Shown in pieces: positions 2,885-35,135 of a DNA stretch of 40,659 bases (position 1 is the stretch's first letter; every line of letters begins with the position of its first letter). Source of the DNA: an uncultured Synergistales bacterium. Lineage in GTDB: Bacteria; Synergistota; Synergistia; Synergistales; Aminobacteriaceae. The notes below the pieces were generated by a model. That model ran no database searches, was not told the origin of the DNA, and saw only the letters and a program-made list of their open reading frames with translations. Where the stretch lies: NCBI GenBank assembly GCA_905233525.1, contig CAJOEW010000002.1, positions 1 through 40,659 on the forward strand, in the 5' to 3' direction. The translations under genes and the position numbers were made by a program.

Positions 2885-4157
2885 TTAATTTAATTCTAAG
2901 CAATCGCGCAAATAACTCATTGAGATCTCACGCCAGGCATTTAATTTTTCATCGACAGCTCCATAATCAATACCACCTTCAGGAATTTTTGAGCCGCTCC
3001 TGTAAATACGATCGCTTATTCCGAGACGCGATAATATGTCTTTAATTTTATAAGAGTACTCGCCGAATGATATAAAATTCTTTTTAAAATTGATTGAAAA
3101 CGCTGTACCGTGAAATGAACTAGTGAAAATTATTTCAGCATGATCGATCAGCCATAAAAATTCATCCGGTGTCGTTAAATAATGCTCAATATCTTCCCAA
3201 TTAAATATGTCTATGATCTTCATGTCACCGCAAATTTTCTTCATGGCCTGCGATTGCTCTTTATCCAGGCGTCCAAATGAATACAACAGCGCATATTTTT
3301 CAGGGATATTATACGAAGGTTTCTTTGAGATTTTTCGCCATTGTTCAGCCGTAATTAAGAACGTCGGATCAATTACTTGAATAGCTTCACGCCCTGTAGT
3401 TTGTTTAATTAAATCACAGCCTTCAGATTCGCGGCATGATAATTTTTTAAACGCCGATAAATATTTTTTATTAAGCTCGTAAAATTTTTTATCGAATTTT
3501 TTAAAGCCAAAGCTCGGAGCATAATTAACACGCTTATTTTCAGGCATGAACGCGAGATAAAAATATTCGAGATCTTCTTTTGTACCGCTCCAATTACGCC
3601 AGACCATATCACTACCTGTTACAGCGTATTTATACTCGTCAAATTTTGTATTTAAAGCCTGTTCATACGTTGAAGGGATTCTATTGCAGATATATTCATC
3701 ATCGAATTTATCAAAAGCCTTTGTCCTGCGCTGATTGATCTGCTCAAAATTTCCTGTTAGTTTTCTGCGCTGTTCCTGTTGCTGTTCCTGTTTAAAACGT
3801 TTGATATTATCGCGCCATAATTTATATTTCTTTGAACCTAAAAACGCCAGAATGTGTTTGACAAAATTTTTTGAGCATTTTTTTAAGCATGAAGTTACAG
3901 AAATTTTATCAGCACTTCGCGGCATATTTGACCATAAATTATAAACATCGAAGCCAAACGATCTCAAAACTTCCTGTAACGCATAATTCTGTAATTTATT
4001 TCCGTGATTGGCATCATATTCAACGCCGGTGTGAAGTGTTACGAGTAATATTCTACCGCTGTTCTTGAGCCGCTGTTCTTGAGCCGCTGTTCTTGAGCCG
4101 CTGTTCTTGAGCCGCTGTTCTTGAGCCTATATTATTAAAATTATCACTTTGCGACAT
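2885..4157 (-). CDS. Phase-variable polysaccharide pyruvyl transferase (out of frame here)
   Basis: The intact product would be about 428 residues of the polysaccharide pyruvyl transferase family (PF04230), which adds a pyruvate ketal to surface polysaccharide. Visible marks are the N-terminal GNKLQNYALQEVLRSFGFDV segment, TGSDMVWR, SCRES, VIDPTFLI and SSFHGTAFS. In the continuous frame the first start codon is a TTG at 3967, which lies downstream of the conserved N-terminal strand, so it cannot be the real start. The only suitable start is ATG 4157, with AAGGAGA about 15 bases upstream. Between it and the domain lie five copies of a 14-bp unit. With five copies the ATG frame stops at TAG 4053-4055 after 34 codons; six or three copies would join the two parts. 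Present state: OFF. A 12-bp direct repeat at 3769-3792 encodes a Gln/Glu-rich stretch, in frame. The gene is monocistronic and convergent with nhaC. Confidence 0.85.
4056..4125 (-). repeat. 14-bp tandem repeat, five perfect copies, in the 5' coding region
   Basis: In coding orientation the unit is CTCAAGAACAGCGG. Copies are 4056-4069, 4070-4083, 4084-4097, 4098-4111 and 4112-4125, all identical. As 14 is not a multiple of three, each gain or loss shifts the frame. The unit has no stop codon in any coding-strand frame. Three copies encode the 14-residue string RTAAQEQRLKNSGS. Confidence 0.97.
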
Positions 4158-4235
4158 TTTCGTTTTGTCAATCTCCTTTTTGCGTATTTTTCACATACTC
4201 GAATAAAGAAAACTACTTAATTTATTGCTATAGCG

Positions 4236-33737: not shown

Positions 33738-33811
33738 GGCGGCATAGCCAAGTGGTAAGGCAGAGGACTGCAAATCCTTTATCCCCGGTTCGAGTCCGGG
33801 TGCCGCCTCCA
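33738..33811 (+). tRNA. tRNA-Cys (anticodon GCA)
   Basis: The acceptor stem GGCGGCA pairs with TGCCGCC. The anticodon loop CTGCAAA sits on AGGA/TCCT, giving anticodon GCA. The T arm CCCCGGTTCGAGTCCGGG is standard, and the 3' CCA is encoded. It stands alone; the next 166 bases hold only the upstream region of the glycosyltransferase gene. Confidence 0.96.
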
Positions 33812-33977: not shown

Positions 33978-35135
33978 ATGGGTACCAGCGGAGCTGAAAA
34001 TACGCAATTAAGATCCGGTAGTCCAACTTTAAACGACAGCACGACAGCACGACAGCACGACAGCACGACAAGCCCAAATTGTGTCTCGACACCAGATGAA
34101 AATTTAGAAAGAATTCATGTAATTTTAGCTTTTGGTGATCCGTCTTATCCTCAATATGCCGGCGTTGTAATGGTTTCAATTTTTGAGAACACGAGCCACC
34201 CTGTTACAGTTCATATTTTTCACGATGACACCCTAACGGACGATAACAGACAAAAATTTTTACGTACAGCAGAAAAATATTCACAACAAGTAAATTTAAT
34301 AGACGTTAGTTTTTACAGAGATAAAATTAAAAAATCTATAGGCGCATTTTTAAAATTTCCAATTGGAACGACGTACAGATCATTTATTCCAGACGTGCTT
34401 AATAATTTGGAGAAGGTCATTTATCTTGACTGCGATATTGTCGTAAACATGGACATTTACGAATTATGGAAAATTGATTTGCAAAATAACAGCTTGGCCG
34501 GAGTCATTGACTGTCAATTTTATTTAGAGCGTGATCTGCTTGAATGTTTCCATGTTTGGTTTCATTTGATCGGCATCAGCTTAGATAAATATATAAATAG
34601 CGGCGTGCTTTTAATGGATTTGGAACGCGTAAGAAAGAAATTAAATATGTCGTATGAATTTCAAAAGTTCATAATCAGATACAGAAATTTAACACGTTTT
34701 GTTGATCAAGACGCTATTAACATGTTATTTAAAGACGATATCAAAATAATTGACGCTCGTTTCAATGAATACAGGCTTGATAAAGTAGATATTGCTCCTG
34801 AAAATTGCATTATTCACGCTTGGGCAAGTAAACCGTTTAAAAAAATTGCCGGCCATGTTTCTGATCGCTTATACTGGAAATATTATTTAAAAAGCGCTTG
34901 GGGAGAACATGACACACCGGAAGATCTCATAAAAAAAATTTGCGATATAGCCGCCGGCATTCCTGAACCGACGAAGCAAAAGAAATCTATTTTTAAGAGT
35001 TCCATTTTTTATAAAACAATGAGAAAAGCGTCAAAGAAATGTTCCATCGAGTTTAGAAAGATAATCGCTCTGTGTGTTAAAAATATTATTTACAAGCTAC
35101 AATATAAATCAGCTCTTAAACGTTTGGGCAGCTAA
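33978..35135 (+). CDS. Phase-variable family 8 glycosyltransferase (in frame here)
   Basis: This family, which includes LPS galactosyl- and glucosyltransferases, transfers hexose with retention. After a non-conserved N-terminal tail of about 45 residues the 385-residue protein has VILAFGDPSYPQYAGVVMVS, FPIGTTYRSFIPDVL, the metal-binding YLDCDIVV (DxD), YINSGVLLMDLERVR, FVDQDAINMLF and IIHAWASKPFK. All are typical. The tail contains 4.75 copies of an 8-bp repeat, which the present frame reads through. One copy fewer ends at a TGA and one more at a TAG, both within about 20 codons. Present state: ON. ATG 33978 has AAGGAAG upstream. The gene is monocistronic. Confidence 0.92.
   Translation: MGTSGAENTQLRSGSPTLNDSTTARQHDSTTSPNCVSTPDENLERIHVILAFGDPSYPQYAGVVMVSIFENTSHPVTVHIFHDDTLTDDNRQKFLRTAEKYSQQVNLIDVSFYRDKIKKSIGAFLKFPIGTTYRSFIPDVLNNLEKVIYLDCDIVVNMDIYELWKIDLQNNSLAGVIDCQFYLERDLLECFHVWFHLIGISLDKYINSGVLLMDLERVRKKLNMSYEFQKFIIRYRNLTRFVDQDAINMLFKDDIKIIDARFNEYRLDKVDIAPENCIIHAWASKPFKKIAGHVSDRLYWKYYLKSAWGEHDTPEDLIKKICDIAAGIPEPTKQKKSIFKSSIFYKTMRKASKKCSIEFRKIIALCVKNIIYKLQYKSALKRLGS
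34033..34070 (+). repeat. 8-bp tandem repeat (4.75 copies) in the 5' coding region
   Basis: The unit is ACGACAGC: full copies at 34033-34040, 34041-34048, 34049-34056 and 34057-34064, then a partial ACGACA to 34070. Eight is not a multiple of three, so each change shifts the frame. The unit has no stop in any coding-strand frame. Confidence 0.97.

Follow-up and report, generated by a model that had tools for sequence, protein, structure and literature searches.

How can an enzyme be made from a reading frame that has no start codon of its own? The question arises on the minus strand of the window, the whole 40,659-nucleotide stretch of DNA analysed here, where a Pfam match and frame analysis delimit a polysaccharide pyruvyl transferase-type enzyme frame at 2885-4048. 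As the initial annotation had claimed, no ATG, GTG or TTG occurs in this frame ahead of the first conserved strand. The frame is open across a tandem array that sits between a start codon, ATG 4157, and the conserved domain, and whose unit is not a multiple of three: the 14-bp GGCTCAAGAACAGC is repeated 5.14 times over 72 bp (4056-4127, minus strand), with 100% identical copies according to both sequence reading and TRF. The frame that begins at ATG 4157 passes through the array and terminates after 34 codons at TAG 4053-4055 (leader reading frame 4053-4157, minus strand, OFF state); the five copies and the stop right behind them had both been pointed out at the start, and both stand. By register arithmetic, five copies are out of frame, and copy numbers divisible by three are in frame. 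The continuous frame of 428 codons, initially predicted for six or three copies, is correct for six, but three copies give 414. The unit has no stop codon in any of the three frames. As assembled, the window gene is OFF.

Upstream of the leader lies a Shine-Dalgarno-like AAGGAG (SD; 4173-4178, minus strand), whose spacing of about 15 nt from ATG 4157 is long, yet within the range of this genome. It belongs to a conserved module described below, together with TTGACA (4166-4171, minus strand), the -35 element of the promoter that we call P2; at the window locus TTGACA is intact, and the matching -10 part is degraded. Shuffled sequence of the sampled genome contained no array of comparable size, which rules out a chance origin, and the 14-bp unit is absent elsewhere in this genome and in its relatives, which rules out a dispersed repeat. 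The gene itself looks like an islet: in two relatives, transketolase and the gene next to it adjoin, with no such gene in the flank.

The enzyme matches PF04230 with E=1.7e-30 and 107 bits, against a gathering cut-off of 25.3, over profile positions 1-277 of 280. A PDB sequence search with it gave no match. Its fold resembles GT-B enzymes; yeast Pvg1p (5ax7), a known pyruvyltransferase, is among the fold matches (E=1.7e-4, TM 0.40-0.46), with GT-B epimerases ranking above it. The name "pyruvyl transferase", given initially, is thus backed by the Pfam match, but as a superfamily-level call for a protein with a GT-B-like fold. A pyruvate-ketal surface epitope would follow from this predicted activity.

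Four further PF04230 genes are found in the same genome, and three of them have other arrays at the same place: ACGACAGC arrays at C10 and C16, and a TGTCC pentamer array at C4, with the leader out of register at all three. The fifth PF04230 gene of the genome, C49, is diverged and array-less. Relatives from the same genus have, at this point of their PF04230 genes, a TGATG, CGACCAG, GACCA or CACAG array or a short ACACG one; a few lack an array and start in the usual way, and the array-less orthologues L104, L109 and L016 begin with an ordinary SD and ATG. Relatives in named genomes were found with an alignment query, a single-protein query having given no match. The close ones are Synergistaceae/Synergistales assemblies, mostly from ruminant gut (red deer, reindeer, goat), one of them labelled Fretibacterium, and their orthologues carry GCACA, TCACA, ATCGAAC and other units; the orthologue nearest in sequence, at 55% identity, has its GCACA array after another leader. 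In the red-deer assembly, three PF04230 genes have a common leader of their own. Among 68 homologues from other lineages, no non-triplet array was seen in the flanks (up to 3 kb on each side). The switch genes of the genome under study are dispersed singles, unlike the PF04230 genes of some relatives (L016, L018, L109), certain of which are clustered directly behind the end of a WbaP-like sugar transferase; in a reindeer assembly (L007 / L105, G012 C15), two PF04230 genes, partly fused, lie behind one TGATG array.

The array of the window gene has much company. At least 30 arrays, with units of 5-14 bp and never a multiple of three, were found in the sampled part of the genome (about 1.05 of 1.64 Mb, chosen partly around matches, so that array densities are not unbiased). 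The 14-bp unit, singled out initially, is present but is merely the longest of this set; the commonest length is 7 bp. Nearly all these arrays are at the 5' ends of genes of surface-polysaccharide type. Among the proteins encoded behind them are GT8, DUF4422, PF04230, DUF6625, bacterial sugar transferase, MBOAT acyltransferases, methyltransferases, UbiA, DUF2142, FrhB_FdhB_C, FkbH, MaoC, SDR, DUF2284 and radical SAM proteins, as well as an O-antigen-polymerase-like protein that has no Pfam match and is named from its look. At about 30 of the loci the enzyme frames are intact over 300-600 codons. Sequence from the same genus (393 kb) yielded three non-triplet arrays, two of them at sites picked for a PF04230 match, and sequence from other families within the order (377 kb) contained arrays of 6- and 9-bp units and no other unit lengths. 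When fused proteins of the relatives were scanned, 18 of 20 had a Pfam match; 17 of these 18 belonged to families that commonly take part in making surface glycans (glycosyltransferases, sugar transferases, acyltransferases, glycerophosphotransferase, methyltransferase, DUF4422), and the remaining one was an ATP-grasp protein. A weak recurring stretch resembling TAATTATGCCC / TTATTGTCTC lies directly 3' of many arrays.

The arrays relate to their enzymes in two ways. Of 99 sites, we classed 48 as fused, where one frame runs at least 100 codons into the enzyme, and 36 as coupled, where a separate gene begins shortly downstream. At the fused loci inspected by eye, the stretch from array to enzyme is free of start codons. 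In the coupled class (L070, L081, L087, L092, L304, L333, L350 and others), a ribosome-binding site of its own precedes the downstream gene, and the array frame stops 0-14 nt past the next start at 28 of 36 loci, compared to 26% in the control (p=8e-11), often in an ATGA or TAATG overlap; an early test of coupling with few loci was weak, and with 36 loci the signal is clear. None of the 49 distinct units is a multiple of three in length, and a stop codon occurs in one of the 49 on the sense strand versus 19 of 49 on the antisense strand (p=6e-6). The depletion of stops on the sense strand only, together with the coupling geometry, indicates that the arrays are translated in any register, and neither property fits an untranslated array of the hmw type. 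Among fused loci the leader is in the productive frame at 15 of 45, and among coupled loci at 6 of 27. This proportion, near one third, fits free drift of copy number and is equally the null value, so that we do not count it as evidence.

A conserved module precedes the arrays, in the order promoter P1, SD, start codon, P2 (TTGACA-N15-18-TATAAT) and array. TTGAC stands just behind the SD in 13 of the 14 non-cassette leaders of the genome that were examined first, and in 12 of 395 ordinary starts, which rules it out as a general trait of translation starts here. Most leaders have a TATAAT-like hexamer 15-18 bp past TTGAC, and the array start usually falls between -1 and +2 nt from where this hexamer ends; at the fixed register, 13 of 16 unique loci score at least 9/12, versus 0.6% of random positions. 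A near-consensus P2 between ribosome-binding site and array is likewise seen at L304-L389. We searched for the module alone, with the pattern AGGA-N1-5-TTGACA-N16-18-TAHAAT, and obtained 102 matches in 25 genomes of the same genus, compared to 5 with the pattern reversed; 16 genomes from other families yielded 3. An array lies directly behind the module at 73 of the 86 genus sites read, compared to 3.1% in a control under the same lenient criterion; the units at these 73 sites are 7 bp long in 60 cases, 5 bp in 11, and 8 and 14 bp in one case each.

P1 is an extended -10 promoter, present at 69% of loci versus 5% in the control, usually 25-45 nt ahead of TTGACA. Scored as a two-hexamer promoter it gave background values only, and extended -10 scoring rose above background. 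P1 can supply RNA that bears the SD and the leader, and RNA from P2 would begin inside the array, without the leader start, a transcript for which a simple frame switch has no use. What, then, might P2 be for? In the gonococcus, the promoter of the pilE G4-associated RNA fires into the variable element, and pilin variation depends on its transcription (PMC3547852). P2 may, in a similar way, render the array mutable. P2 might be a dedicated mutability element, with RNA synthesis from inside the array opening the strands and driving copy-number change, and AAAGGAG-TTGACA-N17-TATAAT-array might be a portable self-destabilising cassette grafted onto unrelated glycan genes genus-wide. We put this forward tentatively, as a possibility that is less likely than not; alternatively, P2 may have a side effect on expression or be a relic of the origin of the cassette.

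The second switch gene of the window illustrates how leaders are shared. It encodes a GT8 glycosyltransferase (33978-35135, plus strand; PF01501, E=1e-30) and, by frame analysis, is ON, its leader being in register with the enzyme; a tRNA-Cys gene (33738-33811) precedes it. TRF finds 4.75 copies of the 8-bp unit ACGACAGC in the leader (34033-34070, plus strand), and the segment 33946-34040 on the plus strand is a cassette of 5'UTR, SD and leader (ATGGGTACCAGCG...). This cassette occurs also at C10, C16, C28, C34 and C43 and, in diverged form, at C3 and C50, so that eight loci of the genome, counting C2, have a common leader (GAAAGGAAGTATTTACATGGGTACCAGCG...) fused to unrelated enzymes, with arrays of 8-, 10- or 11-bp units. 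In the five closest copies, the 90 nt ahead of the array are 93-97% identical without gaps, and the arrays are 22, 30, 34, 38 and 86 bp long; array length has changed faster than its surroundings. Array length thus differs between near-identical cassette copies within one genome, and it differs between species as well. A second cassette (AGGAGGTCTTGACATGAACGACGAA...) is found at C9, C6, C46 and C58. Given one cassette on unrelated enzymes with different arrays, the leaders may be mobile, or recombination may homogenise them. Contigs C50 (L082, 14352-14450) and C47 (L251, 1-99) have a common 99-bp end that stops exactly at AAAAAGGAGCTTGACA, which places a fork of the assembly graph within a switch module; this may be coincidental, 99-bp overlaps being common in the assembly.

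Taken together, the window gene is very probably a reading-frame phase-variable (contingency) gene, one of a genus-wide system. Translation would start at ATG 4157 and run through the 14-bp array, whose copy number slippage would alter; only one register in three would give the pyruvyl-transferase-type enzyme, and with five copies, as at present, translation would stop at once. Genus-wide, the conserved 5' module fronts single, dispersed surface-polysaccharide genes, with the array fused in frame to the enzyme in the fused class. In the coupled class, the array is part of a leader peptide that terminates across the start of the next gene, and the frame would act via translational coupling. Many genes switching independently would yield a combinatorial surface coat. 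Slippage in living cells, the change in expression and the surface phenotype are what we infer from the DNA. Switching by copy number, already proposed in the initial annotation, has gained from the orthologues, whose arrays at this site differ and are likewise non-triplet, from about 30 further arrays, from the stop-free sense strand and from the near-identical cassette leaders with different array lengths.

Could the switch be mainly transcriptional, with P2 a working promoter, the array at its start site tuning initiation or RNA stability, and the frame effect secondary? The near-consensus P2 in fixed register with the array would be at home in such a scheme, and so would the ribosome-binding sites that downstream genes of the coupled class possess. 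It would, however, not require non-triplet units or a stop-free sense strand, the P2 RNA of fused genes would have no start codon, and the -10 part of P2 is poor at the window locus. We consider this account improbable, while an additional transcriptional effect of the arrays, beside translation, is conceivable.

Frame switching also has to be weighed against simpler accounts of the OFF state. The array lengths come from a metagenome-type draft assembly and could be consensus or misassembled; the 99-bp k-mer overlaps at its contig ends, and the fact that most fused loci read out of frame, would agree with a true copy number that is constant and in frame, or with a dead gene. Yet dead genes would not keep frames of 300-600 codons at about 30 loci, the pattern is repeated in many independent assemblies, and at 72 bp the array fits inside the assembly overlap, which makes artefact or decay very unlikely. 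Contig breaks at arrays (6 of 85 ends) were dropped as a sign of polymorphism, since 99-bp overlaps occur at many ordinary ends. It is scarcely credible that the enzyme is always made, via a non-canonical in-frame start or ribosomal frameshifting, the array being a tolerated coding repeat: an ATA codon does stand just ahead of the first strand, but the window locus lacks an SD behind its array, orthologues that have no array start from a normal SD and ATG, and the non-triplet stop-free arrays and the module would be left unexplained.

These observations point to phase variation of surface glycans on a large scale in gut bacteria that are known chiefly through metagenomes and that probably change their coats at random. 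Pathogens are where such switches are usually studied; here they are seen outside them, with a preference for heptamers, and we found no phase-variation study of Synergistetes in the open-licence literature. The strict register of P2 and array is a sequence-encoded clue to the mutability of tandem repeats, and the leader common to unrelated genes suggests that a cassette is the form in which the ability to switch spreads. Annotation of this genus will miss many genes or call them truncated, because their start lies across an out-of-frame array.

Contingency loci with simple sequence repeats (SSR) in the coding region are a classic feature of surface-glycan genes in Haemophilus, such as the LPS genes of H. 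influenzae (PMC2651432), and in the phasomes of Campylobacter and Neisseria (PMC6321876, PMC5953494), and rarer penta-, hepta- and octanucleotide loci have been catalogued in H. influenzae (PMC2651432). The loci described here resemble them in having a non-triplet array in the 5' coding region of surface-glycan genes, with copy number setting the frame. They differ in that most units are heptamers, the array is fixed to TTGACA/TATAAT, one class is coupled through a leader peptide, one leader serves non-homologous genes, and the lineage is Synergistaceae. In the opa genes of Neisseria, CTCTT arrays lie in the signal-peptide region, and a repeat-bearing leader is likewise common to several dispersed genes; the opa genes, however, are homologous to each other, whereas the enzymes downstream of the leaders here are unrelated. 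Haemophilus hmw1A and hmw2A also have 7-bp units near the promoter, but those arrays are outside the coding region and act on expression level, whereas ours appear to be translated and are stop-free (PMC2651432). The gonococcal pilE G4 RNA, an analogy for P2 only, also starts inside a variable DNA element, but at pilE a G-quadruplex drives gene conversion, and here the element is a tandem array and the role of P2 is putative (PMC3547852). The frame logic is thus already known; the differences are in the length of unit preferred, the fixed register of promoter and array, the existence of a coupled class, the leader shared by unrelated genes, and the lineage.
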